From: Nymphaea colorata
Lineage: Eukaryota; Streptophyta; Magnoliopsida; Nymphaeales; Nymphaeaceae
Reading direction: 5' to 3'
DNA: 64,000 nucleotides
Assembly: GCF_008831285.2 (NCBI RefSeq)
Contig: NC_045141.1
Coordinates: forward strand, 17,098,106 to 17,162,105
Each line of letters begins with the position of its first letter. The stretch's first letter is position 1. A program made the position numbers and the translations under genes. Below the pieces are notes generated by a model. It made no database searches and was not told the origin of the DNA. It saw only the letters and a program-made list of their open reading frames with translations. Below are positions 3,835-64,000 of this stretch, piece by piece.

Positions 3835-6190
3835 GCTTTAATTCTCTCCTAAAATCTCTCACTTGCCGTAACCACCCGCTGGGCTAAGGGAAAACCTATG
3901 AGGTGGCACTATATATGCCCAGCTATTCTTTGATCTAATTGAATCGATCGATTTCTCTAGACGGCGCCTCATAGAAGCAAACCCATAATATCTCTCTTCT
4001 TCCTCTTCTCTATCTATTTCAGGTGCCATCTTCTTGAGCAAGATGCCAGATGAGAAGCTGTTGTGCAAAAACGAAGGACTAAACATAGGTGATGTTCCAC
4101 TGCATTTTATCCAACATCTTATTGCTCACGCTAGCGACGAACACGACGGTTGTTTCTGTAAGGTTATATCCGAACCACTCTCGCCTCCTTCCTCCTTTCC
4201 GCTACCTCACTTCCAAAATCCTCAGGAACCTTAACCAAATGGAGACTGTCATGGTCAGACCCTTGTTCTCTTTTTCTTCTCTAAACCTCCTTTTTGACAC
4301 TTAAACATATCTTTTTTCTAACATAAAGTATTGAAGTGTGACGACACAACGATTCAAAAGAGGGAGCTATGTCATTCAAAACAATGAGGTGAACTTTCAT
4401 TCATATAACAATTTTGCTTTCATACAAAATCACATCTAAGTGTACTACAAAAATACTCCAAAACATAGAATTGATGTCTAAAAACAAGACATCAATACAA
4501 TCAAAATAAGACGTGCCGGCGCTACAAAAGACCCAAAACCTCCCCAATAGGACGTGAGTAAAACCATCTGCTCAACCTGCTATCCCTGGTTCACCAAAAC
4601 CTGAAAAAAATGAAACAACAAAAGGCTTGGCCTTCGCAGTATGGCAACAAGTCAGGAAAATTCCAAACCCTCTTAGGTATGGCTCAATATCAAAAAAATA
4701 ATCTATCGTCATGTCGTGTCAGGGCATAGGCACATCATTTTCTAAAAAAAACCCCTAACATAGATCATGACATGTAAAGGTCACTCAAGGGCCACAGTAT
4801 CACAATCTCAATTACATGCAAGACATGCTTAAACATTTCATTTCATTCATATCATTCACATGCCCATCAAACACATATATTCGTTCACACACAATTCAAT
4901 CACATACTTTCATTTTCATTACTTTAGTGAATTGACAGTTTCTGTGGGTGTAAACACAGACACGTGCACACCATGGGCGGCCCATAGTCGAGAGACAACC
5001 CCCCGTGCTGGCCCATAATGGTATGGATTCATTCATCCGCTGCAGCGGTAGAGCACTCATCCATGGGTGTGTGAATTCCATAAAGAGATACTCAGCTTTC
5101 CCTAGGACACCCAAGTTGGGAAGGCGGGAGCCCAACGCTCCAAGCACAACACAACAGTACCCTGGGGCCTTGCATCGCCTGCGCTCCTTACAGACGAGAC
5201 CAGTGGTAAAAGCGGGACGTCTCCCAAACACATAGCCACATCCCACTAGCCTCTCATCTCTTATTCATTCTTAGTTAACATTAGGGAAACACAATCACAA
5301 AATAACCAGCTAGCTCATGAGGTTGGTTCACTCCTCGAGTGCACCCATACCTCCAAATGCCTCCACCCGAGGGCTACACATATAATTTACTTTCTTAGCT
5401 AGCCGTCATAGCAATACGAGTACAACTACTCTTCAATTTCAATCAATTACATTATTGCCCATGACAATACATATGCAACAAAACACAACATTCACATCTT
5501 ATCAAACACATCAATCAGATCTTTCAAAACTTGGCCAAACTCCGGAGAGTAGTCTCGATCTGTGATGGCTCGTAGTTGTCCTATGCAATTATCATTCTAT
5601 GATGCCCTCTAATGCACAATCGGGGTCGAGGAGATACTCGACTCGATACCCCACCTCATTTGTCCTAAACAGTTGGACTTGGATATGATATAGGGTTTTC
5701 TTCATTTGTTTCCAAATCTACATATATGAACATCCAATAAAACAAGCACATTCAAGCATACATCCAATGGGGATCAAATCTATTGGCATCCCTATATATT
5801 CAGGTGGAATACACTATTAATGTTGTCCAAGCCGCTATTGTCACGGGCACTTTAATTTGAATCTTTATAAGAAGGTACATGTATTAAGAAGAATTGAGGG
5901 TGATTGACGGCTTTTTGTGCTTTAAAAAGAACCCATTCTTGGTTGGTGGCATCTTTGTAGATGCCTCAAGAAAAACTTAAAAGCGAAGTTAATTTTCCTG
6001 CTGCTAGAGGAATCGCCTGGCTAAAAGCCGTCCGCCCACGTTGTTTCTCCTATTTTTGTTTTTTCCCATCTGTAAATGTCCATTCTTTTGCTCTATAGTA
6101 TTTGCAGCGGAAGTAAAGGAGAAGGACGCTGCAGGTGTCGCCGAAAAATCTATACGGCCGGCAGGGCTGTATGCAACTCGAAAACCAGGG
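3835..6190. other. Intergenic DNA with unassigned repeat and a tRNA-like trace
   Basis: No gene can be supported. 4320-5800 has the texture of an old long-terminal-repeat-like sequence (C/A-rich on the plus strand, with a GC-richer core at 4960-5240), but no coding motif identifies it. At 5042-5085, TGCAGCGGTAGAGCACTC followed about 20 bases later by GTGTGAATTCC resembles the A and B boxes of a tRNA-derived SINE; the match is weak. Confidence 0.35.
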
Positions 6191-6193
6191 AAG

Positions 6194-6784
6194 ATGGCGG
6201 AAATTTTTGCTGGTGCAATTGCTGGCGTTGCAGTACAAGAGTTGTGGAATATAATCCAACGAGTGGCTGGGCAACGTAGCATGTTTGAAGAGCAGTACAA
6301 GGAGCTTCAGAGCGCGTTGGAAAGGTTAAGTCCAGTACTGGACCAACTTTCGGCCAATCGGGAGGTGGAGGCTCTGCGCTGCGAGATGACAAAAGGCGGA
6401 GAGATCATAAGCAAGTGTGCCCACGTTTCCTGCTGGAACGTCCGCAAGCAATTCGACTACACCCGGCGGCTAGAAGAGCTAGCAAAAGCCATCCAGGAAA
6501 GCGCACGGACTGCGACTGTAAAGACACTGAGCTCGAGGATGGGGGAAATAAATTCCAAGTTGGATAAGTTGCTGGGAGGAGACGAGGTGACTGGAATTAG
6601 GTCAGGAGGTTCTGTTGCTGCTCTGCCTCCTCTCCCTGGTAAGGTCTTTGGGATAGAGAATCCTCTGAATGAGCTGAAAGAGATATTGAAGATGCATCAG
6701 GTGGTTGGCGTTTGTGGGATGGTGGGTTCAAGAGAATCAAGACCACCTTGGTGAACAGCCTCTGCAGGGACCCATCTATCACAG
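6194..6784 (+). pseudogene. RPW8-type NLR (RNL), broken 5' fragment
   Basis: The frame from ATG 6194 starts MAEIFAGAIAGVAVQELWN and reads about 185 residues of an RPW8 coiled-coil domain (amphipathic helices, e.g. LQSALERLSPVLDQL). It then has the linker found before the nucleotide-binding domain (LPGKVFGIENPLNELKE) and the start of the P-loop (VVGVCGMVGS). RPW8-NLRs such as ADR1 and NRG1 act as helper immune receptors at the plasma membrane. Inside the P-loop the frame is lost: the GKTTL-equivalent (IKTTLVNSLCRDPSIT) is in another frame, with a splice-like AG|GT after it at 6784/6785. No further NB-ARC or LRR sequence was found in the next 2.4 kb. I therefore read it as a truncated, frameshifted relic of a host resistance gene. 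A sequencing error at the P-loop plus a very long intron is a less likely alternative. Confidence 0.8.
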
Positions 6785-16995: not shown

Positions 16996-19900
16996 ATGGA
17001 TTCCTTTTTCCTGTTGTCTGAAATTGCGAAGAATTATTCGTTGCTTTCAATACCGGGAGAAGTTTCCCACACTTCTCTCATATACTTTTACTTGAGCGAG
17101 TCCTGGATTTTTTTTTGTGTCGTCACAAGGTTTCCGATCGCGTCATCCTTCCATCATTGGTTAGACCCTAGAGGTAAGGTTTAACCTGTGCAGTATCATG
17201 TCGTGGATGACGCTCCCGCTGCTCCCGAATATGGCCATCTTCCTTGGCCAGCGTGCGATCCGTTTACTAATTGCCATTTAAAAATGTGAACGTGTGGCTC
17301 TCATTAATCGTTTGCCTTCTTTGGGCTTCGTATTGGTGCTTCTTTTCTTAGGTACTGATATGAGAAGACAATGGCAGATGATGATCTTGTTACTTGGAGT
17401 TTCTATCTGTTTGCTTGTGAAGTGCAATAAGAATTTCAGTTCATCATCTGTAAAGTCAAATTGATGATTTGCTAAGGAAGTCAAGAGATCTAATAAATCC
17501 TCATTTGCTTGTTTATTCCTTCGAAGACTTGTAACTCTGTTTGATTATCCAGGTTACACACTTGATCCTGCAAAATGCAGTGAGATGAGTTTGGAGGAGA
17601 AGCGGCAGCTAGTGTATGAGATCTCACAATGGTCAGACAGTGCACCCGACCTTCTTCAGTCTTGGAGTCGCCGAGATCTTCTGCAGCTCATCTGTGCAGA
17701 AATGGGCAAGGAGAGAAAGTACACAGGCATAACAAAGACTAAAATGATTGAACATCTTCTCAGACTCGTGTCTGAGAAGAAGGCAGGAAAGGGCACTGCT
17801 GATCAATTGTCCACCACCCCAGCCACACCAGATTCCAATCCCAGTAGCTCTAAAAGGCAGAGGAAAAAGGATAATCCACTGCGACTCTCTGTTGATTCAA
17901 GTAATGTGACGGTAAGTAATAATGAACCAGAGAACAGAGACGTTATCCTATGCCAGAACTTAGTGTGCAGGGCGACTATGAAGCCAGAGGATGCTTTCTG
18001 CAAGAGATGTTCTTGTTCTATTTGTTATCGTTATGATGATAACAAGGATCCTAGTCTTTGGCTGGTTTGTGGTTCTGATTCTCCAAACGCGGATGATTCT
18101 TGTGGAATGTCTTATCATCTTGAATGTGCATTCAAACATGAGAAGGCTGGCATCTCTAAAAATGGGCGGTACCCAAGACTGGATGGAAGCTTCTATTGTG
18201 TATCATGTGGAAAAGTGAATGGCCTCCTTGGGTAATATTACTGATCTCTTTTCCCTTTATTTCCTCTAAAAGAAAATGGAGGGAGTTGCTTATTCCATGG
18301 TCACTGATCGACACTATTTTGAAAACATTGGAATTATTTCAGCAAAATTTTTCAAGCTATTGGTATTGGCAATATGTTTTCTATTGCAAGTTCCTTGAGA
18401 TTTTAGATGTATTTTTATTTTTAAAAAGGACGTGTATTTCTTTATACTTTGTAAGAAACAAAAACTACTATTGTTTTGTAATTTTGCTACTATTCTCTGC
18501 CCTTTCTTCTTTAACCTTTAGAAATTTCAACTTTTTCCTGTGATTTCCTCCAGAGGAGCCATATTTCAGTATCCAGCAAAAGCCTTACCGAGAAATTTTC
18601 TGGCCAACGTTGTTAAACTATGATACTCATGCAAAGCTCTAGCTTTCTGTTGGAACACTTGTTGCTATAGCATATTTCTGCAAGTTTCAATATTCACTTG
18701 ATCAGAAATGGAAGCTACTGTTTGTTACTTCCCCTTTGAAATGGCGCCTGCTCCTTTGATTGCTCTTTTTGGATGATGTCTAGTTATCTACTACACTCTG
18801 CTTCGTGATTCAATGATCAATCAATTGCTAGTTTTGATTTTGAAACAACTTTGAACGCAAATTACCTTAAATAGGTTAAGGCCGTACTGTTTCTTCCTGA
18901 GCTTTAGGGGCCTTCCTTTAGGCAGTCTGTAGACTCTGTACTTTTGATTAATTATATTTACAAACTCGACAGTTGCCTTGCAAAATAAGATCTGGTTACT
19001 ACTATATTTATGTCCATTAAGCCAAGGAGCTTCATCATCATAAATGCTCGACTGATGCACCATAACCTATATCCACTCCGTCCAAACATCCAAGTATTTG
19101 TATAGAAAGATGCATCTTTCTATTTCTTGATTCTTTCTTTTTCATTATCCATAGAGGTCAAGATGTTGCAGAACTTGCTCCCAGTTATGAACTGTACTTG
19201 ATTCTTTTATTTTCTTCCTGTAGAATCGTCTGAATGTAGTGGATCTATGAATCAACCTTGTAGTGTTATAGATATCATGTCAGGATGGTAGGTCAATCAC
19301 TTGCTTGGAAAACTGCTAGATTTATACGAAAGCATATTAAAGTGGAGAAGTGTAATTATATATTTATACATATTAAAAGCTTGTTCTTCATCTGCATTAC
19401 CTATGATCGAAAGGTGGAAAAGAGCCAGATGCTATTTTCATGCTTTCAAGATGTTAAGTCTAAGAAAGTTTGTTTCCCCTTGAAGGTAAAAGCTATGCTG
19501 GATTTTCTTACAATAGGAAGACATTTTTTCCTTCAGTTCTTTCTAATAATTACATTAAGTAAGGATAAACAAAGGGAAACAATGAAATTGCAATTTTGTG
19601 GAAAGGTTATTAAGCATGTCGGTTTTCTTTTTGGATAATGTAGAAGGATCATTCAATACGTAATGATCTTCATTTGACCACATTTTCTGCAGATGTTGGC
19701 GTAAACAACTGTCAATTGCAAAAGATGCTCGAAGGGTTGATATCCTATGTTATCGAATATCTCTATGCCAGAGGATTCTGAGGGGGACAGAGAGATATAA
19801 GGGTCTTAATGAAATCGTCAACGTGGCTGCAAAGAAATTGAAGGAAGAGGTTGGACCGCTTCGTCAAGTGTCTTTGAAGATGGCCCGAGGAATAGTCAAC

Positions 19901-21042
19901 AGGCTTTCTTGTGGTGCTGAGGTTCAGAAACTTTGTTCTTTTGCAATAGAGGCTGTTGATTCCATGCTGCAAGCAGATCCAGAGAAACCATCTACCGAAC
20001 CAAGCCTATCAAGTACGTGGGGTTTTGCATCTCTTTTGAGAATATTTATTTATTTGATGGTTGCTCTCTTTTGGTCTGTGAAACCACATCCTGTTTTCTG
20101 GTGTTTTTCCCAGCAAAAACAGCGATCCCTTCTTTTTCTGTCCATTTTGAAGATGTCTCATCAACAACAGTTATGGTGATCCTACAACTTGAAGACAAGA
20201 AGTCATCAGATGATATTACGGGCTGCAGATTGTGGCACCGAAGTATCTCTGTTGGTGAATATCCAGAAGAACCCATGTATATTTTCCTGGACAAGGAGAC
20301 AAAATTCATGGTATCTGGTTTGGACCCTTCAACAGAATACGTTTTCAAGGTTGTCCCGTTTATTGGTAGTAGAGAGCTTGGGGAATCTGAAGCCAGGTGG
20401 AAAACCGGAGAAATGCCCATGGGAGATAATAACATGTCAACCAGTCAGAGTGCCGAGAGGGTCGATAAAGTGGACTCCGGCTCTACTCTGGAAGAGGAAA
20501 ATGTGACTGGTGAACATGCTTCTGTCATCCAGGCAGAATCTCAGAGGGACTCTACCAATTCCAGTGATCACAATCGAGCTCCAAAACGACCTAAAATTGG
20601 CCATGAAAACCATTCCAAGGTTCGACCATTGGATGAAATCAGTAACAACAATGAGTGCGATATGCTGATGGCAATGGAGATTGTACCTTTGACATGCTCA
20701 AATTCGGCACTGCCTGATACTCCATGCAAACCAGACATGGCTAAAGAGCTGCCAAAATCTGACAAACAGGACACAGAAGGGCAATATGAGCATTGTGTCA
20801 AGGTGATCAGGTGGCTAGAATGCGAAGGGCATGTGGACAAGGAGTTCCGGGTCAAGTTCCTAACTTGGTTCAGCTTGAAGGCCACAATGCAGGAGAGAAG
20901 GGTAGTGAGTGTTTTTGTAGATACATTGATTGATGATCCAGCAAGTTTAGCCGGGCAGCTGATTGATGCATTTTTAGATAGGATTTGCAGCAAAAAGCTA
21001 CCACCCATTATGAATGGCTTCTGCACCAGACTCTGGCATTAA
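16996..21042 (+). CDS. VIN3-like (VEL family) PHD-finger protein
   Basis: VEL proteins (VIN3, VRN5/VIL1, VIL2) join PRC2 and help silence targets such as FLC by H3K27me3. Well-supported exons are 17553-18231, 19693-20012 and 20114-21042; the joins (GG|GT..AG|A and A|GT..AG|CA) restore frame exactly. Counting from the Met at 17585: N-terminal VEL helices (1-66, [21 protein letters not shown]), a KRQRKK nuclear signal (90-95), and an atypical Cys/His-rich PHD finger (C123-C208, [13 protein letters not shown]). Exon 3 adds the CWRKQL..AKDARR four-helix part, and exon 4 an FN3 domain (from FSVHFEDVS). A C-terminal VID polymerisation domain ([20 protein letters not shown] to the end, GFCTRLWH) closes the protein. 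Upstream, GAG|GTAAGG at 17173/17174 is a strong phase-1 donor that would join an open frame from ATG 16996 to GYTLDPAKC. The 59 residues it adds are hydrophobic and unlike the family, so the true start is uncertain. Confidence 0.88.
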
Positions 21043-50305: not shown

Positions 50306-52170
50306 TGTCTCTTCCCCTTCTCTCTCTCTTCCTCCTCCTCCTCCTCCTCCTTCACAGTAATGACAATCTTCAAATGGGTAGCTTCAGTCCTCCAGTAAAA
50401 GCCTGTAACCATCATCATCCCACTCCACTCTCCACCAGCTGCCTACACTATACATACTTGTTTTTAGTTTAATAAAAAAACGGCCTTTCAAAATATCATC
50501 CGAAAAAATTACCATATGTATATTATTAAAGTTGCACCATTTTTTCTTTTTTTTTTTTAAACGGTTTAACGTATCCCAAAACACAGTTCTTATTATTATT
50601 AAGAGCTTTTGAGTGGCAACCCGTATGAGAAGAGGCTCAGATTGCTTTGGGACCTGCAAAAAAGCGAACACTCGTATCTTAAAATCGCATCCACTGACGC
50701 AAATTGATGAGAGAGCTTTCACTCTACCCTCTCACTTGTTTCCCTCTCTTTTTCTTTTTAATTGACATACGTAAATTGAAAATGATTTACTTTCCTTTGT
50801 ATTTGTGTAGCATGATAGTGCAAACAGATATGAAACTTAGTGTCAACGGTACCAAGTTCATGTTTAACTATTTTTATATTTGTTTTTTTGTTTTATCCTA
50901 CCACCTCCATAACATAACAAAAGAACTAAAATACTTGAACTCATTTCAAAAAACTGGGCTTCTGCTTCACTCATTTACAAATTAGACGAGTTTGAGCTTA
51001 CAAATATGCGAACAAGTCGAGTTCGAGTTTCAAGAACTTGACTTATTTATACTCGACTCGACTTGCACCAGTCTTTTATATAATATTGCCAAAAACCAGT
51101 TCACCAAGTAATCAGTTTTAATTTTGAGGGTAAAAACAAATTTTCACAAGTTAACGCTTACACGAGTTAAACGAGTTACATGAGCTAAACGAACTAATGC
51201 TTACACAAGTTCAACGAGTTAATGCTTACATGAGTTAACACATAAACAAGTTAAATGAGTTAAACTAGTCTAGTTCGATCTCAATTTTGTGTAGTCGAGC
51301 TCAAGCTCGAGTTTATTGAGCTGAGCCGAGCTTCGGCTGGCTCAGCTTAGGTTCGACTCAGCTCGTGTGTAGCCCTAATGATACACAATAAGGATAAATT
51401 AATACTTCAAATCCATGATTCACAATAGTAGGTTCAAACCATGCATGATTGGCAAATTCAGCACTTTGGGCATAAACCTATCCTTGGGTTTCTTTAGCCA
51501 TAGTTAGCAACTTACCATAATGTACCAAACTGAAGTCATGTCATATAAAAACAAATTTTATGTGACTCTGTTAAGTTATTCTCTCCTGATTGGAAGGGAA
51601 ACAACTTTATTTTAGATTGCAAATGGGTAGGACTTAGTTTGTGATGGTATCATTTTCTTTCATATGGAATTCGATTCGGAGCCAAATATTTTTCTGATCT
51701 GGATTACACCCGACACTGTTTTTCAGCGACAAAGACAGCATATAAAGAGTGACATGTATCTGATTCAGATCCAAATATCTAAAAGAAAACTCTTACAAAT
51801 GTTTTGGTGCAAATCTGGGAAACGAATCCTATTTTAGTTCAAACCAGAGCGTTATTTCAACTTTAACGAATACGACCCGAATCCGAGACGGTTTATGTCC
51901 CTCCTTAGCCAGTAAGGACACAGTTTTACAGAGAAGCTCCTAGTTTTCCAAGCTTGGGAGCCTCGACCTCTGCACGCTTTGATGGTGGCGTCACGGCTTA
52001 GATCAGCGGCCATGAACTCTGGTAAAGGCGACCGCCATGGTGTCGCCATCCCCTGGACATGGTCGAGTCTAACTGAAGAAATTTCATCTATAAAAAACGA
52101 AAGAGCAAGAAAGGCAGATAACAAAGAAAGAGCCACAGAGTGAGAACAGAGGAAAGGAAAAGAGAGAGGA
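50306..52170. other. Intergenic with AGCTCGAG-type repeat
   Basis: 50990-51378 is made of degenerate GAGTTAAACGAGTT, GTCGAGTTCGAGTTTC and GTCGAGCTCAAGCTCGAG words. It ends GGTTCGACTCAGCTCGTGTGTAGCCC, a very common plant interspersed repeat whose reverse reads GGGCTACACACGAGC. No gene is seen. 51950-52100 is the promoter of the next gene. Confidence 0.5.
51990..52096 (+). promoter_or_regulatory. Promoter of array member A
   Basis: GTCACGGCTTA at 51990-52000, the motif shared by all five array members, is followed 88 bp later by CTATAAAAAA (52089 on). The transcription start would lie near 52120. Confidence 0.6.
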
Positions 52171-52188
52171 ATCTGCATGTCGTCGACC

Positions 52189-52820
52189 ATGGGGAGGTGC
52201 CAAACCGTCTGGCTCCGGCCTTGCCGTGGATTCTGGGGACCTGCAGTGGAGAAAGAGTCCCCGGGTTGTGTCACGGCTAGTGGGAAGTGCCAACCTCTCC
52301 GTCTCCGTCGTCGCCTCGGACGCCAGTGCCGCACCAACCAGCCTTTACCTGCAAACAACGCTGCAGTTTCGGGTGCCAACAAGGGGGAGACCAGCGTACA
52401 GCCGCCGGAGCACCAGTGTTCGCCGCCATGGCAGTTCCGCCGGTGCGATGCCGGCTACCCCTGCGGCTGGTCTCCTGCTTTCCGTCCGATGCAACACTGG
52501 GCTTTCCAGGAGCCACCACCACAAGCGCAGGATGCAGCGCAGACCGCCGCTGCGGTTCCGGCATCGTGGCCTCCCGGCTGGAATCATGCCTGTCGCCGCC
52601 GCTTCCGGCAGCGGGCATTGCCGTCAGGTTGGAGCCATACGTCCTTAATATGAAGCTCATCTTTTTCTCTCTTCATATTCCTGCTTGTCATCTTTTTTTT
52701 CCCAATTCAAATGAAAGAGGTTAATTTTTTATTTTATTTTTTTCGTTCCTTCCTTGTGAAGCCGCCGAAGATGTGGAGGGAAACGCTGCCGCGCCTGCCG
52801 AAGCCGATGGCGGCAAGTGA
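52189..52820 (+). CDS. Array member A: divergent long Cys/Pro-containing protein
   Basis: Exon 1 runs 52189-52627 (TCAG|GTTGG) and exon 2 52762-52820 (GTGAAG|CC). The join is phase 1, as in the other members, and gives 165 residues from MGRCQ; an in-frame ATG at 52177 (MSST) is an alternative start. The tail after the intron reads AAEDVEGNAAAPAEADGGK, short and acidic. Part of exon 1 aligns with member D: QF..C...P.GW..AF.P followed by a PPP/Q-rich stretch. Cysteines are fewer and Arg/Ala higher than in B, E and F. Exon 1 is roughly twice the usual length, so a frame problem or extra intron cannot be excluded. Function unknown; its promoter and 3' block (GCCGGATTCTGG at about 52878) support membership of the family. 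Confidence 0.55.
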
Positions 52821-53544
52821 TTCTCTGACGTGCTTGGCGTAGCAGACTATAGCGATGACGGCGCCGGTGTTCTTGCCGGATTCTGGCGACTCCATCTTCT
52901 GTGTTTCTCTTCTTTGTTAGGAATGCCTTGCTGCAAGGCACACGTAGCACTACCGGTGTTCATGCGTATCGTGACTCTTACATGAACAGCTCTCCTGCCC
53001 TGTACGCCTCTGCGTATGTATGTGTGTCCGCGCGATCTTGCGCTCGTAGTGTAGTCGAGAATACAAAGTTTGAACTTGAAAAATAAAAATATGAAATGTT
53101 CTTTTCTTCATATCTTCCGTTCTTTGTTCGCTGACATCTCTTGTTTGTTTCCAACAAAATCTGCTTTTGATAAATTTAACAAGAAGAACATACTTGATCA
53201 TAGCAGCAAACCAACAAAACAATGTCACCAAGGCCTTTCGCAATCGGTTCGACAAATAATAAGTCCAAAACCTCCGCCCTTGTCTCCATCCTTCAAATTC
53301 AAGTTCGAGATTGCATTTTTTACTGCTTCGACGTGACACCCTTTTTATCTTTTGTCTTCTCTTTTCTTTGTAGTGATCTAAACCCCATCTAAAATGTCAA
53401 TCCCTCAAACAAATGATTCAGTAAATTTGAGTAACATATTTTGAAAGCAGAAATAAAGAAAAATATGTAAAAATCAAAAGAATAACAAGTAAGAAACCCA
53501 ATGTCCTCTCATTTTTTATCCCACTTTTCCCTTTTTCCTACGTC

Positions 53545-53662
53545 TACCGCAGAGGCGTTGGCTTGATAGGGTTCTCCATCATTTTTTCCCCTTACCCCTT
53601 CCTCTCTTTGAGTAGCTGTCGAGGAAGCAACGAAGGGCGTCAGGTGGGGCTTGACGCTGTAA
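53545..53662 (+). pseudogene. Array relic C: orphan 3' part
   Basis: CAGAGGCGTTGGCTTGATAGG near 53551 and the run to the stop at 53660-53662 align with the intron end and exon 2 of member D (57630-57751; CGGAGGCGTTGGTTAGATGG). After TTGAGTAG the sequence reads VEEATKGVRWGLTL and stop, comparable with the tails of other members. No Cys-rich first exon or promoter motif is visible in the 400 bp upstream. I read it as the remaining 3' part of a sixth copy. Confidence 0.55.
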
Positions 53663-54176
53663 CTTTGTCCGACCAAGTCTGATTCCTTCTCCGTCTTCAC
53701 TTGCCAACTTAGTTTTTATTCTTTACACAAAGGGATCCGTAAGACGTTTAGAGCTGATTTTGTTGAGGAATCTTCATAATATATAGCTTTCATCTTGTTA
53801 AAGCTATTATCTAGATTAAGCCTTCCTCTGTCTAATTATATATTCTCCCTCTGTTCTTAATGGTTGTACACGGGAACCCAAACATTTGAGCTTTAACCTG
53901 AGCTGGTTCACTTTTAACAGTTTACAACTGTATAAGCGAGAAGGATGAATATTTTGAAAAACTCCAAGGCCAAGGATAGACATGGGGATGGAGAATCTAA
54001 TATTGGTATCCCAATAAACTATCCTTAAGGTAGCAGTTTCCATACAATACCGGATTAGTGGCACTCAGAAAGCGGCGAGACCCAACGTTATCGTGACAGA
54101 TGGCCATCTTTAAAAGTGTCCATATTCTAGAGCTGCCGCCGTGAAGGCAACCGAGCAAGTCCTTCCGGCGTCTGCC

Positions 54177-54243
54177 GTCACGGCTTACCGCAGCACCACC
54201 ACGATCTCGACGCTACACCTGCGGCCCAAAGTCTCTCTATAAA
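54177..54243 (+). promoter_or_regulatory. Promoter of array member B
   Basis: GTCACGGCTTAC (54177-54188) and a consensus TATA box, TCTCTATAAAG (TATAAA 54238-54243). The surrounding 150-250 bp align with the same regions of members E and F (CGTCTGCCGTCAC, CGGCCCAAAG), and further up CCGGATTAGTGGCACTCAG matches CCGGGTTTGCAGCACTCGG. Confidence 0.75.
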
Positions 54244-54334
54244 GTGACGGAACCGACGAGCATTCTCAACGTGGGAAGATCGCAATAGAGAGAGAGAGAG
54301 AGAGATCAGGTCCTTCCTTCTGCGATTCATCAAT

Positions 54335-54680
54335 ATGGGAGGGTGCCATTGGCGCGGACCTTGCCATGGCTGGTCCATGGGTTGCCATCGATCCGGCTGC
54401 GGGTGGGGCCAAACTTACAACTTCAACCACCACGGATGTCCCTCCAGTTGTCCGCCTCCTTCTTATCCGAAGTATCAGTATCCTGAACAAGCAGCGGCGG
54501 CGGCGTACCCTCCTCCGGCCCCTCCAGGTACCGACCGTATATGTTTCTCTTTTCCAGGTTTAGCGCAGTGAGAGAGGGATCCTGCTCATCATGGTAATGT
54601 TTTTGAGTTTTTTCTTCTCGACTGATGTAGTTAAAGAAGCCCGGCAGCGCGACTCCGGAGGCCTTGATGGCACGCGCTGA
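54335..54680 (+). CDS. Array member B: MGGC Cys/His/Gly-rich polyproline microprotein, 80 aa
   Basis: Exons 54335-54527 (CTCCAG|GTACCG) and 54631-54680 (GATGTAG|TTAAAG), phase-1 join. Residues 1-39 carry MGGCHWRGPCHGWSMGCHR and SGCGWG, with cysteines at 4, 10, 17, 22, 35 and 39 and many His, Gly and aromatic residues. Residues 40-64 are Pro/Tyr/Ala-rich, and the intron-encoded tail reads VKEARQRDSGGLDGTR. There is no signal peptide or membrane segment. Gly2 followed by Cys4 would allow lipid modification, although the residues after it fit the myristoylation consensus poorly. The Cys/His density suggests metal binding or redox chemistry, an inference only. I recognise no family. Exon 1 open frame continues a little past the donor, so an unspliced form would end differently. 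Confidence 0.72.
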
Positions 54681-55899
54681 CCCTACTGATCAGCTTAGCA
54701 TTGCAGGCTCTTGCCGGATTCTGGCCGCCGGATTCTGGCCGCCGGGTTCCTCGTCTGTCCGTCGTCTCCTTCGTGTTGTTTGGAGTTGTGGACTTTCCAT
54801 TGGTTTCGTTGCCGCAACGTACAGACTCTGTGCAATATATGTGCCACGACGACGAAAAATGCCTGTCGTTAATTAAAAAAAAAACACTTTTTGCATGAAT
54901 AAAAAATTCAAAAAAAAAATATAATGTTTTGAAATTCGATGGAGCTCGTTGGTGAGTCTGTAAACGAAGATCGTTATGAGTAATCGAATAAGTTGAGGGG
55001 TAAAAAAATGTGTTCATCATTTTGTTGTTGCTCATATCAATGTCTTATTCGTGTTGTTCTCTTACTATTATTTCATATATATTATCTTCGTTTTACACAT
55101 ATGTTGTTATCTCCTACCTCTTATTTCATAAAAGAATGTCATTTTTCATACCTTTCATACACCGTATGAGATAACGATAAAAATATAAATTAACGACAAT
55201 GGTATAAATGTTTTTTGTGCACATTCAATATTAAGACATTAAAGTCAATATGTATATTGATACTAGCATTCATATTTTTAAATTAAAATGATGTTCCTAG
55301 TGTAACTAATTAAATGTGTAAATGGAGAATATTTATGACTTATAAAATATTCGGCAATTGGCTGACATCTTAGCAGTTTAATTGTTCCGGTAAAATCCAA
55401 ATCCTCTAAGCATTGAAGTTAAATAAAAATCAAATTCCATATATGTAAAACTCTAAGGAGTATTTGGATGACAATGTTAAACTCCATATATGTAAATCTC
55501 TCTCTCTCTTTGTCCTTGTAAAAGGTTCACACATGGCCATGGAAAAGAATGTTGATCAAGCGATGTTTCCAGTTCGTGCAGGATAGCAAACAACTTATGT
55601 CATCGGTCTTCAAACTATAGAAAGGGCGCAGATATCATTTGAAAACCAAAGTGTGAATAAAAAAAACTCGTAATATATTTCTCTTGAAAAACTTTTATAT
55701 GACGAAGAATATAAGAAAGAAGAATAATCTTAATTTGTTTACATAGGGTTGGTCGAAGCCACTTACAAGATTTTTGTCGACCACCCAAAACAAACAATTT
55801 CATTACATACACTTAAGACTGAATTGGAGGGTGCTTCATAATAAGTGAATACTAAATCATAAACCAAAGACTCAACATACATAAAATAAATACATAAAG

Positions 55900-56975
55900 C
55901 AAAGGACTATATGGACTATTGGTCACAAGAAAACAGACTTCCCCTCTTCAAGTCATGTGTCGTCCTGGTGCGGGTTGTTTCGTAGTAGAGTTTGAGTTCC
56001 AACGGGTAGTGATGCTTAATACTAAATGGATGCTCTCGGGTTGGGTTTTGCTCGCCTAACTACTTCACTTGTACTTTTTCGACTCACTTAAATAAATTTT
56101 TTTGTGTCAAATAATTTATTCCATCTGGCAGTCCGCGCCTTACTTGGCCAATATAACTCACTACACAATCGGGTCTCATCCTAGGATGCTCTATATAAAA
56201 ATCTTCATCATTAAAATAAAAGGACTATAAGTTATAAACATAGAACATTGAATGCACCATAAAGTTTGACGGTAGGTCTAGCTTGTTCGCCAACTTTTTG
56301 ATCTTCTTTAGTATTGTAAAAGGTCTCTCATAATTACGAATTAACGATAGATGTCAGCCACGAAAGATGGTTGGGTGGTCAGGGTAAAGCTTCACGAGGA
56401 CTTAGCCTTCTACTCGAAACTCCAAATGCCTTGGAGTCTGCAAATTTTTGGTGGTCTTGTGAAAGAATGCCTTGGCCAATTTTTTTTGTTCTTGCCAGTT
56501 GCGGACCCTTCTCCTGAGCAACAAAGGTACGAGGCATTAACTGTTGTTGTCCTATAACTATCTTGAATGAACTGTGCCGACAAGACTCACTTTTATATAA
56601 GTTATAGTAAAATTGGACTACATCAAATAATTTCACTTAATTCTTTTGATTTGCACTAATATAGTATAGAAGATATTGTTCCAATAAATTGTTGATAAGT
56701 TGAGTTTGACCATTAATTGCCAGTGAAAACTTTATGAGTGAAAATTTATTAAGAATAATAAATCTAAACTCAACGAACAAAATACTTTGCACCAAAGCTT
56801 ACCTATGAAACAGCTATCACTTACAATGAGTTTCGGCACACGCCCTAGTGTTTCACTATTTGCTTCACAAACATTCTTGCCATTTTTTCTACGAAACATT
56901 CTTTAGCGGTTAGAATAAAAGCTGCATATTTTAAAAAGTTGTTCACAACCACGGGCACTCCTGCATGAAGCGATG
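55900..56975 (-). mobile_element. Ty3/Gypsy integrase-region fossil
   Basis: On the minus strand, recognisable pieces of a plant Ty3/Gypsy polyprotein lie in order. They come from the integrase core (about 56970-56830), the region with QFYYN and GQQ..PRT words (about 56640-56540), and the integrase C-terminal region (about 56400-56230). The copy is clearly broken, with several interruptions, and lacks gag, protease, reverse transcriptase and both LTRs here. It is an old fragment. It lies between array members B and D, so it inserted or was carried along while the array was forming or decaying. Confidence 0.7.
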
Positions 56976-57166
56976 CCTGGTGGACCGAGTTATGAGAACC
57001 CGCCACCGTGCGTTGACCAAAAGAGGCCCAAATTCAAGCCCAAGAGGACGCCGATTGGGGTCCCACCTGCGGAAGCTCGGTCGTCGTCGCCTTCAACCGA
57101 CTTCTTGGCACTGGTGCGTGCCGGAGAGAGCGCATAGCTCGCCAGCACAGTGACTCCGACGGTGGC

Positions 57167-57250
57167 GTCACGGCTTAGCGCAGCGGCCTTGAGGTCGGTT
57201 GCAGGAACACGAGGTCGTGACTTACGGAGTAGGTTTCCTCTATAATATAA
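57167..57250 (+). promoter_or_regulatory. Promoter of array member D
   Basis: GGTGGCGTCACGGCTTAGCG (core 57167-57177) is nearly identical to the word upstream of member A (GGTGGCGTCACGGCTTAGAT). CTCTATAATATAAAG at 57239-57252 serves as the TATA region. Confidence 0.65.
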
Positions 57251-57299
57251 AGAAAGATGAGGGGTAGCGGTGCAACGTGGTGGTTTTCAACTTTTCATG

Positions 57300-57751
57300 A
57301 TGGGATGGTGCCATGGACATTTGTGCTGCCAGGGAGGCTGCCTCCCGGTGGCGGAGAGAGCGGTTGCTGGTGCTCCGTTTTGGGGAGGTTGCCATCGACC
57401 ATACGATTACCACCACGGCCAGTTCCCGCCTTGCTGCAGCAGGCTTCCATCGGGCTGGCCGTGTGCTTTTTGCCCACATCACCCCTGCCACGGTCAGGTG
57501 CCACCGCCGCCGGAGGAGTGCTCCGGTCAGCAGCCGGCGCCGCCTCCTCCGGGCAGTCCAGCGTCCTCCCCAAATCAGCGCGGTAAATGTCATCTCGTTT
57601 TAATCCTAACATTCTCTTTTTCTCAGGTCTTCCACGGAGGCGTTGGTTAGATGGCGAATTAGCGATCCCTCCATCGTCCTCTCTCTCTCTTACTTCTTTC
57701 TCTGTTTGTGCAGCTGATGAGGAAGGAACGGCGGGAGTCAGCCGTCTCTGA
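57300..57751 (+). CDS. Array member D: divergent Cys-rich polyproline protein, 106 aa
   Basis: Exon 1 57300-57582 (CAGCGCG|GTAAAT) and exon 2 57714-57751 (TTTGTGCAG|CTGATG), phase-1 join. The start MGWCHGHLCCQGGCLP recalls MGGCHGPGHC of member E. The centre reads GGCHRPYDYHHGQFPPCCSR, then GWPCAFCPHHPCHGQ, then PPPP..QQPAPPPPG. The tail after the intron is ADEEGTAGVSRL. It has 13 or so cysteines in about 95 residues and no signal peptide. ATG 57297, one codon earlier, gives MMGWC. Together with member A it forms a second subgroup of the array. Function unknown; a metal-binding or structural role is conceivable. Confidence 0.62.
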
Positions 57752-57899
57752 GGTCGTGAAGATGGTCGATGACCAAAGTTCGGGATGTGCAACTGGAACG
57801 TAGCGGATTCCGGCTACGAGCCAGAGGCGCTCCTTTCTGTTCTTTTTTTTTTTTAATCGGGCTTTCTTACTGGATATCTGTAATATACCACCTTCTGGG

Positions 57900-59900
57900 G
57901 AAGCTGTTCCATGCGCTCCTCAGCATGGTGAATAAATAGAAAGCAGTTTGCGAAATATGGTTTACATATTTTTGTAAAATTGTTATATTTGTGTTTCATA
58001 AAGCTGACGGTTGAATGAATTTCTTTTCTTCAATCCCGTTCTTCAAAATCTGTGTTGATGCTGAAAAGCCAAGGAAACCACGCTTCAATCAGACCCCCAA
58101 ACGCGTTCTGATGGGAACCCGTACTAAATCTTTTGCTGCAACTTCGAGTCTTTGTATGGAACACTCGGTCGTATAAAATGTTTTGAAAAATGAATATATT
58201 TACGAAACACTGCAACGACGATGGTTATATACATAACTGGATATATGTATAAGAAGAATTTTCAAAATAATAAAAAATATATTATAAATAAGAAAAAAGA
58301 TTAAAAGGTACACTTTATTGCTTCAACCTGCACTCCTTTTTATTTTTTTTTAAAAAAAGAAAGTATTTTTATTTGAATACTATTTTTAATACCTTAAATT
58401 AAGTCGTGAAAGATAATACAACTTCATTTGAAGCTCTTGCACATACTACGGTTTTTAAACTAGAGGAATTTTTTTTAGGAATTTTTTTTAGTGTACTGTT
58501 CAATGAGAATGAGCTTTGGACAACCACCTTTAATTTTTTTTTTTAAGGGTGAGTAGTTCATTTCACTGCTGTTAAGAGTTCATTTCACCGCCTTTAAGAG
58601 TGGCTATTAGTCTCTATGTAATGGCTACTAGTCCCTATGTGATCGCATCATGCTTTGCGACTTTTTACAGATTAAAAGTAATGTGCACTAAGACGTGACA
58701 GTGATCATTTCAAGACTCAAACCTGAGTCTTGTAAAAGTAATGTTCACTGAGACGTGACAATGATCACTTCAACACTCGAACTTGAGTCTTTAGAAGAGC
58801 TAAAAAAATGTTGTCGCACAATACGCTACCACTCCTCGGAGTGACCTCTTTCAATTTATTCATGCAATAGAAAAATTGATTAACTTCTTATCTGACAAAT
58901 AGGGTTTTTAATATTTAGTATTTAAGCAAGTGTTTTTATACTATAAATGTTATTCTTAAATATAACAATGACACTATTATTTTTTAAGTAAAAATTAAAG
59001 CATATGTGCTCGAAGCAGGTTTTACGAGAGTTAGCATTTTAGAACACAATGTTCTTGTTATCAAATGCCCTTGACGAGTTTCCATTTTTTTCTGAAATGT
59101 GAATTGCATTGTCAAATAAAGAAACTTGAACATATAAATATAATCTGGAATCAAAATTTCAGATTTATGATTATACTTTAAGGGTGAAATTATTATTCAG
59201 AGTTTTAATATTTTGTCATCTCTCTTGAAGGCATACGACAGGATAGTTTAGTTCATCAATTCTATCATTTTAATATATGTTTTATCAAACATGTTATTTT
59301 CTATTCTGAAATCAAAATTCCAAACTATCAAGCACAAAAAGAAGACTAAAAAGTAAAATTTTCATTTTGATTTAAATTTAAGATGGAATTTTCTTTGTAA
59401 AATTTTAATTCTAAAATCAAAACTCAAGTCAACAAAACCCATTAACCGTATAAAACCATGCTTCTTTTTCAACTTAAACAAGATGTTGTAAGCCTAAGAA
59501 AAGCAGACTACTAGTTTTAAGTTCCTCATAAAATCTTACATCCAAGACATTATTTTTGTACAAATGATTCAGTTTTCCATCATAAATATCATGTCACATT
59601 CAAGTTTTATGTAGGTTAGTTTCCGAAACCGACTTTCTCATTTCACTTGTACCTGCAGAAATCGACCGACAAATTCGGGGCAAGATTACTTTTTTTATAT
59701 CATTGACCATTTCCTTTCGTCGTTTAGAACAGTTTTTAACTTTCGAAAGCAAACGATTGCTTTGGAAATAAGAAAAAAAAGGAAGGAAGGATAAGCGACG
59801 CTCCTAATTGTTCCAGTAAATTGTTCTCGAAGTAGCGGTTTTGATACTAAAACCGGGTTCGCAGCACTCGGAAATAAAGAAAGAAACCAAATCTTAGCGA
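57900..59900. other. Intergenic, no gene seen
   Basis: AT-rich DNA between array members D and E with no recognisable coding sequence, apart from a 60-bp duplication listed separately. 59790-59900 begins the conserved upstream block of member E. Confidence 0.45.
58674..58793. repeat. 60-bp tandem duplication containing a perfect 9-bp hairpin
   Basis: AAAAGTAATGTGCACTAAGA at 58674 recurs with a few changes at 58734 (period 60). The first unit contains CAAGACTCA-aacc-TGAGTCTTG, a perfect 9-bp inverted repeat with a 4-nt loop; in the second unit the stem is degenerate. The reverse strand AGGTTTGAGTC and AAGTTCGAGTG words are faintly B-box-like. Confidence 0.75.
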
Positions 59901-59991
59901 GACAGATGCCCGTGTCATATAGGCTGACCTTCGAATCTTCAAAAGTGGGAGCCGCCGCAAAAACCACCGGCGATTTCCTCCGGCGTCTGCC

Positions 59992-60064
59992 GTCACCGCT
60001 TACCGCATCACCGCCATGATGTCGACACGGCCGTGACTTACGGCCCAAGCTCCCCCTCTATAAA
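59992..60064 (+). promoter_or_regulatory. Promoter of array member E
   Basis: GTCACCGCTTAC (59992-60003) and CTCTATAAAG (TATAAA 60059-60064). Upstream, AAAACCGGGTTCGCAGCACTC near 59850 matches the same place in member F (AAAACCGGGTTTGCAGCACTC near 62548). Confidence 0.78.
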
Positions 60065-60145
60065 GCTACGGAACCAGCACCCACCCTCAACGTCGAACCA
60101 TCACAATACAGAAAGAAAGAGGGGTAACAGGTAGTGCAATTCAAT

Positions 60146-60397
60146 ATGGGAGGGTGTCATGGGCCCGGGCATTGCCATGGCTGGTCCATGGGTTGCCATC
60201 GCTCCGGCTGCGGGTGGGGCCAGCCTTACTACTACAACCACCACGGGTGTGCCTCCGGCTGTCCTCCTCCTCCTTATCCGGCTTATCCGGCGTATCAGTA
60301 CCCTGCTCAGGTGCCGCCTCCGCCGCCACCACCGGCGCAGAACCCACCTCCACCGCCTTCAGGTACCTACTCTGAAGGGCCTAATACCGGGCACTGA
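60146..60397 (+). CDS. Array member E: MGGC microprotein, 83 aa, apparently intronless
   Basis: From ATG 60146 the frame reads MGGCHGPGHCHGWSMGCHR, SGCGWGQPYYYNHHG, CASGCPPPPYPAYPAYQYP and then a long proline run. Cysteines at 4, 10, 17, 22, 35 and 39 match member B exactly. At the position where B and F have the phase-1 donor (CAG|GTACCT, 60362/60363) the sequence runs on open for 12 codons (SGTYSEGPNTGH) to TGA 60395-60397. The VKEA tail exon is missing: the sequence after the former donor joins the GCTGAGTTCGTGGCG block that follows the stop in member F. Use of the donor with an acceptor at GCTGCACAG (60438) would give another tail and cannot be ruled out. No signal peptide. Family not recognised. 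Confidence 0.68.
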   Translation: MGGCHGPGHCHGWSMGCHRSGCGWGQPYYYNHHGCASGCPPPPYPAYPAYQYPAQVPPPPPPPAQNPPPPPSGTYSEGPNTGH

Positions 60398-60438
60398 GTT
60401 CGTGGCGTGGCCGTGCTGATCAGTTTGGCGCTGCACAG

Positions 60439-60590
60439 ATGGCAATGAAGCCGGTGATCTCGCCGGATTCTGGCCACCGCGTTCCTCATTTATCTGTTGT
60501 CTCTTTCGTTGTCCATTGTCATGTGGCTTGGAGAAATGTTGGTTCGTTTTTTTTAGTAGGTTTTGTTGCTGCAATGTGCACACTCTCGTA
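60439..60590 (+). other. Conserved 3' block of array members
   Basis: GCCGGATTCTGGCCACC, then CGTTCCTCATTTATCTGTTG, GCTTGGAGAAATGTTGG and TTTGTTGCTGCAATGT match, in the same order, the 3' region of F (63255-63390) and in part of B (54715-54835). Shared 3' sequence shows that whole transcription units, and not only coding exons, were duplicated. Confidence 0.65.
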
Positions 60591-60599
60591 TGTGTGTGA

Positions 60600-62540
60600 G
60601 AGTGTGCTGGACATGGCGGCTGTCTAGTAAATACACAAGTGTGTACTTTTTTTTTAATCGATAGAAAATAAAATGTATATGTAAAAAGAAAAGTGCACCT
60701 TTGTCGAACATATTAATATTAATTTTTTTCATTTTATCTTTTGATCTTAATGTCATGCCCCTTTTCGTATTCCATTTCCATCCAGGGTCTGTTTTTATTC
60801 TCTTCAATTGTGGTTAGAATACATTCATTTTCTATGTTCTTCTATACACGAACTTTTTATATAATTTATGAAGTTGGATTTTCCAATTCAATCAAAAGTG
60901 ATCAAATCCAGAGCGGGAGAGTTCTACGTTTCTCTTTTTTTTATTTTTTAATCAAAAGGCCATTTTAAATGTCTTACCACTATAAATTACAAAATATTAA
61001 ATTAACCGTTACTAAGAAATATCTGGAATCCAGCCTCTTATCAAGAGTCACTTTACCACGAATATGCGTTTGATATTACTCCTCATTGTGGAATTTTAGA
61101 ATAAAAATGTTTAATTTTTAAGAAATTAGAATTATGAAACAAATTATGTATTTGTTTCAAAGATTAGTAAACTGAAACATAGAATTATCCTTTTAGAATT
61201 TTCATTCTTGAATGAAAATTTCAGATCGGCCAAAACCCCTGAAAGACAGAAGTCTCGCCGTAACTTTCACCGGTATAAGCATTGGTATGTCGAAGATAAA
61301 AACGACATGGAAATGCAGCCATTAAGATAATGTTGAATGCAGAGGGAAGAAGAAGATGTGGTTTACAAATGTCGAGTAGGGCACTCAGTTTAAAAATATT
61401 CATATTCATATCTGGTAAGATGACTCAGTTTAAAAATATTCATATTCATAACTGACAGGATACTTATATATATTATATCTGATGGGATACTTATTATTAT
61501 TATGTGATGATGCTCATTTAAAAAAAAAAAAAAATTAAGTCACCATGCAGCCTGCCACTGCTAGAGCACCCATCGTGACATAGATTGTCTCTCGAATCAT
61601 TGGGTAATAGGAACAATGTTACATGTTACAAATATTAGAGTAAATTGGAGGAACGTTTTAAATTTGTCCCAATCTTTGTATTAGATAAACCAAACAATGC
61701 CACTGTTCTTAAAGATCCTGTTTGGCAACGGTAATACATTATTTTCGTCCAAAATTGAAGCAAATTTACAATTACTGTTAAATATTATTCTACAAACATG
61801 ACTAAATTTTGAAGGCAGTTTGTGTTATGATTGCCCAACTACTCTAAAGAGACACTTGAAAATCCCAAATATCCATATATAATTTGGTTGCAGATTTTTT
61901 TTCCGGAGGTCTGTGGGTGTATGGGGAATTGGGTTTCTCTCATTTTCTTGTACGGAAAATGTCGAAGTTCTAAATTTCCTGGAATGAAAAAATGGGGTGT
62001 TTTTCAATCGTGTTTAAGAATATAGATTCTAAGATCACATTGTTCTTCCTACCAAATGCAATCGACCAACTCGATTGCTAGGGCCAAAGATAAATGCATA
62101 TATTTGTGTTATTCATAACTGAAATTCTCAAAAATTTGAGACAAGCTACTTTTTTCATGTGTAACTAGGGTTTGTAAAACTTAAAAATAGCAGAATGCTA
62201 GTCTTAAAATATATTTGCATTGGAAAAACATGATTTTTTTTTTAAATGGATAATCCATACAGGATAAGTATCACATCATTTAGTTAGATCTTAGAACACA
62301 CGCATACTCATGCAGCTTTTCTATAGTTTAGTTTCCAATAAATAAAAACAATCCTTCAGTGTTCATTTATGTCTGTGATCACCTTCAGGGCAAGATTATT
62401 TTTTCGTGTAGTTGGTCGTCCGATCCGTCGGTCACCTGGAACAGCTTATAACTTTAAAAAAGCGAAGGATTAATTATTTTGAAATAGCGAATGAAAAATC
62501 TATCATATCTCCATGAATTGTTCCCAAAGTTGTCGTTTCA
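60600..62540. other. Intergenic between array members E and F
   Basis: AT-rich DNA with no recognisable coding sequence; one 40-bp tandem duplication is listed separately. Confidence 0.45.
61383..61460. repeat. 40-bp direct tandem duplication
   Basis: ACTCAGTTTAAAAATATTCA starts at 61383 and again at 61423; the units stay alike through ATATTCATA before diverging (TCTGGTAAGATG versus ACTGACAGGATA). Confidence 0.85.
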
Positions 62541-62673
62541 GATGCTAAAACCGGGTTTGCAGCACTCGGGAAATAAGCGAGACCCACTCTCGAGGAGACA
62601 GATGGCCGTGTTCTACAGAAGAAGCTCCGAGAGCGGCCGTAAAGGCCGCCTGCAATTTCCTCCGGCATCTGTC

Positions 62674-62747
62674 GTCACCGCTTACGACAACACCAACCTG
62701 GGATGTCGACACGATCGCGTCGTGCGGCTCAAGTTCTCCCTTTAAGG
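62674..62747 (+). promoter_or_regulatory. Promoter of array member F
   Basis: GTCACCGCTTAC (62674-62685) is conserved, but the TATA position reads CCCTTTAAGGG (62738-62748) in place of CTCTATAAAG. About 300 bp of upstream sequence aligns with member E. Confidence 0.68.
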
Positions 62748-62839
62748 GACGACGAGAGCAACATGAGCCGTCACTGTTGAGAGAGAGGGAGGTGATCGGT
62801 TGTCGAACAGAGTAGCGTTATCAGGTGGTGCTGTTGATC

Positions 62840-63196
62840 ATGGGAGGTTGCTGCTGGCACGGACCTTGCCATGGCTGGTGCCTGGCAAGCTGCCGTCGCT
62901 ATGGCTGCGCTTGGGGCCAACCTTACTACTACTACAACTACGGGTGTCGATCCGGCTGTCCACCTGCTTTCCATCCGGTGTATCCGTATTCCGACCAGCC
63001 GCCGCCGCCGCCGCCACCGGCCCAGTACGCCCCTCCGCCGCCTCCAGGTACCTACAGTAGATGTGCTCTTTTGTTCAGTCTAATTTAGCGGAGTGAGAGG
63101 GTGATGCTGATTTAATTTGGTGCAATTTTCTTTTCGTCTGGAATAGTTAAAGAAGCGGCGCAGCGCGACTCTGTTGGCGGCGATGGAGGGCGCTGA
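62840..63196 (+). CDS. Array member F: MGGC Cys-rich polyproline microprotein, 85 aa
   Basis: Exons 62840-63047 (CTCCAG|GTACCT) and 63147-63196 (GGAATAG|TTAAAG), phase-1 join. It begins MGGCCWHGPCHGWCLASCRR, then YGCAWGQPYYYYNYG and CRSGCPP, with cysteines at 4, 5, 10, 14, 18, 23, 36 and 40: the B/E pattern with one inserted residue and two extra cysteines. A proline-rich stretch (DQPPPPPPPAQYAPPPPP) precedes the tail VKEAAQRDSVGGDGGR, which differs from that of B mainly in its second half. The same splice sites, phase and tail as in B, 8.5 kb away, are strong evidence that the two-exon model is real. No signal peptide or membrane segment. Function unknown. Confidence 0.75.
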
Positions 63197-63199
63197 GTT

Positions 63200-64000
63200 C
63201 GTGGCGTTGCCGTGGGGGTCGGTTTAGCACTGCAGGCAGGGCAACATCGCCGGTGATGATGCCGGATTCTGGCCGCCGCTGTACAGGCGTTGCTCATAAT
63301 GCGCCGGGTGTCTCTGTCGTCTTTTAGAGTTGCGTGGCGTGGAGAAACGTTGGTCCTTTCGATTGGTTTTGTTGCCGCAATGTACAAATTAAGTTTGTGT
63401 GGTGTGCGCATGTGAGTGAGTTCGCCGGACATGACGGCTGTTTAATAAATAAGTAAATCAATAGATCTATATTTTTCACATGTTGTTCTAAGTACATTTA
63501 AACCTAATCGTTTGCTAAATTGGAGGGCTTCAAGGTGAAAATGAACAAATCAAATTCCATTAATTAGAAAACTAAAATCAGATCTGAAGCACAAATGGAA
63601 CAGATTATTGCAAAAACGGCCTATTTTTTTTAATAAATTGCCGCACTGTTTAAAAGTTCGTAAATATGTATGAGAACATCAAATTTTTTAGGTGATAAAT
63701 TTACCATAGAAAAAATTTCAAGAAAATTTTACGAAAAAAAAATTGATTTTTTCAACTCCAAAGTCTAAGATGGCCAGAAAGTTTTTTCCGTTCAAACATG
63801 ATCTGCTGCACATGAAAAAAAAAAAAACCATGGATAAACTGGTAGGAATGAACAGGTCTGCAACGGACCTCTTTGAATGACCAATCAACAAGTGTATGGT
63901 GCCGTCGGTGCTTTACATTCATCACCTACCAGAACATGAAACTAAGAAACACCTGATTTTGGGCTTGCAGCAGAACATGAAACTAAGAAACATCTGAGAC
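63200..64000. other. 3' region of member F and intergenic end of window
   Basis: 63220-63400 holds the conserved 3' block (GATGCCGGATTCTGGCCGCC, GGCGTGGAGAAACGTTGG, TTTTGTTGCCGCAATGTAC). Beyond 63450 I see only AT-rich DNA. The direct repeat CAGAACATGAAACTAAGAAAC occurs near 63930 and again near 63971. Confidence 0.45.

Follow-up and report, generated by a model that had tools for sequence, protein, structure and literature searches.

In the papers cited here, a circuit joining F-bZIP proteins, the zinc-deficiency response element (ZDRE) and ZIP zinc transporters is described across land plants (PMC5476651), with the ZDRE consensus given as RTGTCGACAY (PMC9643250) and both consensus and F-bZIP mechanism set out in three of them (PMC9643250, PMC6349776, PMC5476651). 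The known F-bZIP regulon in Arabidopsis is short, comprising ZIP transporters, NAS and defensin-like proteins (DEFLs) (PMC9643250, PMC5656896, PMC12035779); NAS2 and NAS4 carry ZDREs (PMC9643250), DEFL203 is among the AtbZIP19-regulated proteins, and several DEFLs are induced at zinc deficiency (PMC5656896, PMC12035779). Here I describe an array of five small genes (A, B, D, E and F) and one relic (C) in Nymphaea colorata, two of which, E and F, carry an exact ZDRE in the promoter. The array lies on the plus strand, between 52.0 and 63.5 kb of a 64,000-nucleotide stretch of contig NC_045141.1 (C4:17098106-17162105; GC content 39.3%), which I call the window and to which all positions refer unless a contig is named. 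Two other kinds of small plant protein invite comparison: the metallothioneins, defined by CxC clusters and few aromatic residues, and the CYSTM or PCC1-like proteins, which are non-secreted and rich in both cysteine and proline.

B, E and F are clear homologues as judged by translated searches: tblastn within the window links them mutually, with identities of 51-69% and E values of about 1e-24 to 3e-33. D, about 40% identical to E and F, matches both (E 5e-9 to 3e-10), and A is joined weakly to the family, mainly through D (E 8e-6 and 2e-5). Relic C (53500..53643, plus strand) was recovered by tblastn as what is left of a D-type gene: it aligns at 69% (E 5e-9) with 57586-57741 of D, a segment that takes in most of the intron and runs into the beginning of exon 2. 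No further convincing member was found in the rest of the window at tblastn E up to 0.1, and no continuation of the array in the 30 kb downstream at E up to 1 (best 0.25). The first-pass annotation, which had drawn five genes and a relic head to tail, was right in coordinates, strand and spacing, and the cysteines it listed for B and E (positions 4, 10, 17, 22, 35 and 39) stand as given. F has cysteines at 4, 5, 10, 14, 18, 23, 36 and 40, that is, the same six after alignment (shifted by one past an inserted residue) and two extra. All six aligned cysteines are retained in B, E and F, and position 5, a histidine in B and E, is a cysteine in F, one ligand-type residue exchanged for another.

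Exact matches to RTGTCGACAY occur twice in the 64 kb, against 0.09 expected, and both lie on the plus strand upstream of array genes: ATGTCGACAC at 60019..60028 for E and at 62703..62712 for F. They precede the ATG by 127 nt (E) and 137 nt (F) and sit about 30 nt upstream of TATA-like boxes, TATAAAG in E (60059..60065, plus strand, read from sequence) and a degenerate TTTAAGG in F. A ZDRE anywhere in the five 250-nt promoters arises in 0.55% of 20,000 dinucleotide shuffles. The promoters of E and F are 66% identical over 271 aligned columns, and the element falls inside a 12-nt identical run, one of five such runs of at least 8 nt. B has a version with two mismatches in the aligned position (54204..54213, plus strand), which alone is no more than chance, a site in A at 52040 has one mismatch and is aligned by MAFFT to other columns, and D has no clear counterpart. 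Since sites with up to two mismatches number 60 in the window against 60.4 expected, only the exact sites were given weight.

To judge from sequence, the ZDRE/F-bZIP circuit is present in this genome (407.8 Mb, 783 contigs) in its ZIP arm. Exact ZDREs number 1174 genome-wide, against 726 for the reversed pattern as control. I took all 14 of the 43 PF02535 (ZIP) matches that begin at profile position 1-3, with stretches of about 2.7 kb each, mostly upstream; seven of these 14 upstream stretches (L039, L040, L041, L042, L043, L047 and L048) hold eight exact ZDREs between them, against 0.11 expected and none for the reversed pattern, and L047 has two that are 70 nt apart. None was found in the upstream stretches of 14 peptide transporter (PTR) homologues, the first 14 by E-value of 109 PF00854 matches among those beginning at position 14 or less; PTR matches begin further inside the gene, so that this set is a control for composition rather than a sample of exact promoters. 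Two F-bZIP genes are also present. One (L079, C9:24364747-24364980, minus strand) has the full Cys/His zinc-sensor motif CTHTHTCNPPGPDHTHTHTCFHVHT, including NPPGP, and the other (L080, C9:5775673-5775888, plus strand) has a shorter one; I take the pair to resemble the Group 1 and Group 2 split of seed plants. As regards membership of the regulon, then, an exact ZDRE stands in the proximal promoters of E and F, and the genome around them has an F-bZIP sensor and ZDRE-bearing ZIP genes. E and F look wired into the circuit. Metal handling, redox and a structural role had all been offered as guesses for the family; with exact ZDREs upstream of E and F, and the circuit present in this genome, the metal guess now points to zinc in particular, though redox and a structural role keep some likelihood.

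The proteins themselves are small and rich in cysteine and proline, four of the five in histidine as well; A and F have only three histidines each; CH or HC pairs occur in B, D, E and F, and all five proteins contain 8-13 Trp, Tyr and Phe residues. In B, E and F the cysteines are confined to the first 40 residues, hydropathy averaged over 15 residues peaks at -0.20 to 0.45, and no C-terminal Cys-rich hydrophobic segment is seen, so these three are not CYSTM proteins, as the first-pass annotation had also held, however alike the two groups are in being small, non-secreted and rich in cysteine and proline. Its claim that there is no secretion signal agrees with what I find: B, E and F have no in-frame ATG upstream, and no signal-peptide-like stretch was seen by hydropathy, the sole method used in place of a dedicated predictor (the 8-residue mean close to the N-terminus peaks at 0.15-0.66 for B, E and F and at 1.35 for D). 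N-myristoylation through the shared MGxC start was considered and rejected, since none of the five proteins passes a PROSITE-type Gly2 motif.

I favour, with somewhat less than even confidence, the reading that the array arose by tandem duplication and encodes small Cys/His-rich proteins that are not secreted, carry a Pro-rich linker and a short charged tail, and may act as cytosolic or nuclear zinc buffers or chaperones, at least two of them induced by zinc deficiency. At low zinc the F-bZIP sensor would be free of zinc, bind the ZDRE and switch on E and F together with the ZIP importers. In the reducing cytosol, or in the nucleus, the six to eight cysteines of the 40-residue core (C4, C10, C17, C22, C35 and C39 among them) and nearby histidines would bind one or two Zn(II), and the protein would buffer scarce zinc or hand it over, with the Pro-rich part serving as a linker or docking segment. 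The other copies, A, B and D, might be older and under other or weaker control. The zinc-sensor motif of bZIP19 and bZIP23 is likewise a dense Cys/His segment, used for zinc sensing (PMC9643250), but the array genes have no bZIP domain and I claim no homology between the two.

That B, E and F are a real coding family under moderate constraint is very probable. Exon 1 is 76-83% identical among the three pairs, against 68-74% for the 150-nt promoter, 46-70% for the 5' untranslated region (UTR), 67% for the intron of B and F and 63-71% for the 3'UTR. Every internal indel in exon 1 has a length divisible by three (one end gap reflects an extra base in the E piece). The ratio of nonsynonymous to synonymous divergence (dN/dS) of exon 1 by NG86 is 0.349 for B-E, 0.383 for B-F and 0.315 for E-F, against medians of 0.80-0.83 in neutral simulations at kappa 2. 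With 1000 simulations per setting (kappa 1, 2 and 4), the shares at or below the observed value for B-E, B-F and E-F are 0.007, 0.011 and 0.000 at kappa 1 and 0.013, 0.021 and 0.005 at kappa 2. The first-pass annotation had proposed a coding family and looked to dN/dS for support; the family is borne out, at least for B, E and F, and purifying selection is seen by NG86 but less clearly by maximum likelihood (ML) and YN00. For the Pro-rich part alone ML puts the ratio as high as about 1.1 in two of the three pairs, and, as the ML and YN00 values for exon 1 given below are also higher, the strength of selection is uncertain. For D and A the case for coding would lean more on the layout of the gene and its open frame: exon 1 of D is 59% identical to that of F, against 53% and 43% for the UTRs, and since exon 1 of A is no better conserved against D than the UTRs are, A depends on its open frame and gene structure.

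The gene models, all on the plus strand, are consistent in layout. A, the most divergent member, has an Arg-rich exon 1 (52177..52627) with weak homology to D, a phase-1 intron (52628-52761) and an exon 2 coding for an acidic tail that ends in DGGK (52762..52820). Its first in-frame ATG, at 52177, is four codons upstream of the MGRC start at 52189, which means that A need not begin at MGxC, and its TATA-like box, read from sequence, is at 52089..52095. B has an exon 1 of Cys/His core and Pro/Ala-rich part (54335..54527) and an exon 2 coding for VKEARQRDSGGLDGTR (54631..54680). D begins with MMGWC in exon 1 (57300..57582) and continues in exon 2 (57714..57751) with ADEEGTAGVSRL, whose first residue spans the junction; the spliced protein has 11 Cys and 8 His. 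F has an exon 1 with the eight-Cys core and polyproline stretch (62840..63047), placed like that of B by gene model and alignment, and an exon 2 coding for VKEAAQRDSVGGDGGR (63147..63196). Thus a phase-1 intron followed by a tail, which had been ascribed to B and F, is indeed found in both, but not in them alone, as A and D have the intron too. All four introns run GT...AG over 99-134 nt and are followed by a short open exon 2, ending in DGGK in A, DGGR in F, DGTR in B and VSRL in D. E is a single exon (60146..60397; 83 aa): the intron is gone, as is almost all of exon 2, and the frame stays open until a stop whose sequence surroundings match those of the stop in F. A 3'UTR block, GCCGGATTCTGGC, is common to A (52863-52890), B (54701-54728), E (60450-60477) and F (63249-63276), and the B copy sits in a tandem repeat (unit 14 nt, 2.6 copies).

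Upstream of all five genes an exact-pattern search finds, on the plus strand, the box GTCACSGCTTA, as GTCACGGCTTA in A (51990..52000), B (54177..54187) and D (57167..57177) and as GTCACCGCTTA in E (59992..60002) and F (62674..62684), and the 64 kb contain no other exact copy. A longer form, GTCACSGCTTASSRCA, is present in the genome as four copies, all of them in the array (B, D, E and F), against none for the reversed control. D and E also have in common a promoter block, CGTGACTTACGG, at 57202-57244 and 60018-60060, just upstream of the TATA-like box and degenerate in B and F.

Searches for relatives support the earlier description of the family as unrecognised, a word that holds for Pfam, PDB, GTDB and IMG/VR, the libraries in which no relative was found. 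Pfam gave no family for B, D, E or F at E up to 10, a threshold at which HMMER filters drop most matches above 0.1; A had an MbtH match at E 5.3 that I take as chance. A PDB sequence search with exon 1 of E returned two sequences, the best at E 0.18 and likewise taken as chance, and a B/E/F profile returned none. With the B/E/F alignment, 29 pattern stretches in GTDB genome contigs and 10 in IMG/VR were recovered and none confirmed, and Rfam gave nothing at gathering scores. Nothing similar was found in the literature, judged mostly from the beginnings of abstracts; PMC5897037 has AZI1 as its subject. Within the genome itself, a search with the exon of B at E up to 1e-3 retrieves B, E and F alone, as does one with the core of F at E up to 10, and 861 nt of F match F itself, E and B and nothing else. 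The D query retrieves only itself, missing E and F at about 40% identity, so that the own-genome search would miss other relatives at that distance.

What else might the array be? The family may be coding but serve in structure, in redox chemistry or in a particular tissue such as pollen or epidermis, with the ZDREs of E and F being chance or serving another bZIP; this is a real though rather doubtful possibility. Such a role would suit the absence of an exact ZDRE from A, B and D (only two of the five genes carry one), the greater conservation of GTCACSGCTTA, which is not known as a zinc element, and the abundance of Tyr, Trp and Phe, which is atypical of metallothioneins; it fits less well with the low frequency of any ZDRE among the shuffles and with the survival of both elements intact in promoters that are 66% identical overall. 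Further results weigh against a zinc-binding family under constraint. The ZDRE was first noticed by eye, and the 0.55% is uncorrected for the other motifs that might have been recognised. Identical 10-column windows between the E and F promoters are not rare (12 of 262), so conservation of the ZDRE is by itself weak evidence, and, as E and F share ancestry, their two elements count as one event. The three NAS (PF03059) upstream stretches are all without a ZDRE, a point against a complete Arabidopsis-like regulon. B, E and F have no CxC or CxxC pairing, unlike many known zinc sites, and AlphaFold gives their exon 1 no confident fold (predicted local distance difference test 56.5, predicted template modelling score 0.25). 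On the side of selection, the simulated shares rise with high transition bias (0.027 for B-E, 0.062 for B-F and 0.009 for E-F at kappa 4), the 41-codon Cys core alone gives weaker shares of 0.006 to 0.10 (the highest at kappa 4), exon 1 has a dN/dS of 0.52-0.56 by ML and of 0.85 and 0.87 by YN00, which ran for two of the three pairs (B-F and E-F), and exon 1 of A and D is only 48% identical, no better than their UTRs (50% and 55%).

Those YN00 ratios, together with relic C, the missing exon 2 of E and the strong divergence of A, would also fit an ageing tandem array of decaying duplicates that has no present function and retains traces of past selection. I think this improbable, as five frames are open, four phase-1 GT/AG introns agree, and in B, E and F the indels are in frame, the exon exceeds the UTRs and NG86 lies below the neutral simulation. 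A cytosolic detoxifier of copper or another thiophilic metal, resembling a metallothionein, is unlikely but somewhat less so: the Cys/His composition and the CH/HC pairs would suit it, while the ZDRE, the one element of a metal type that was recognised, implies scarcity rather than excess. The likeness to plant metallothioneins (types 1-4) lies in small size, cysteine richness, presumed cytosolic location and candidacy as a metal buffer; the differences lie in the histidine, tryptophan and tyrosine content, in the lack of CxC motifs in any of the five proteins and in the lack of a Pfam metallothionein match at E up to 10 (under the same filters), and on these grounds, with the aromatic count, I set that assignment aside. 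Least probable of all is unconventional secretion with action in the apoplast, on the model of the DEFLs, which in Arabidopsis are Cys-rich and have ties to bZIP19 and to zinc deficiency (PMC5656896, PMC12035779), as E and F are linked to zinc deficiency by their promoter ZDREs. DEFLs are apoplastic (PMC12035779), whereas the array proteins have no signal peptide visible by hydropathy, which is why I rejected a place among defensin-like or other secreted Cys-rich peptides; nor do B, D, E and F match any Pfam family, and in the array a Cys core is followed by a Pro-rich part and a phase-1 intron.

Elsewhere in the window, 6008-6748 encodes the RPW8-type N-terminus of a probable resistance gene (PF05659), and 17468-21039 holds a VEL (VIN3-like) gene in which PHD_Oberon and VIN3_C domains are recognised and Fn3_VIN3 matches below threshold. 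The intergenic region between D and E contains two 60-nt copies in head-to-tail order at 88% identity (58673-58791).

Orphan Cys-rich families are common in plants, so another one would be of limited interest in itself. The ZDRE link raises that interest, since it turns an anonymous orphan cluster into a zinc hypothesis whose predicted function can be tested directly. Should an intracellular Cys/His family prove to be governed by the ZDRE in a lineage that branched off early among angiosperms, it would illustrate how components for handling zinc come to be attached to a switch that is itself conserved. Taken one step further, the intracellular zinc buffers or chaperones proposed here might form a class specific to Nymphaeales, arisen de novo or diverged past recognition and recruited into the ancient F-bZIP/ZDRE regulon; this extension I regard as speculative and, on balance, unlikely. 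If it were true, the class would fill, at zinc deficiency, a role held in other plants by nicotianamine, metallothioneins and secreted DEFLs.

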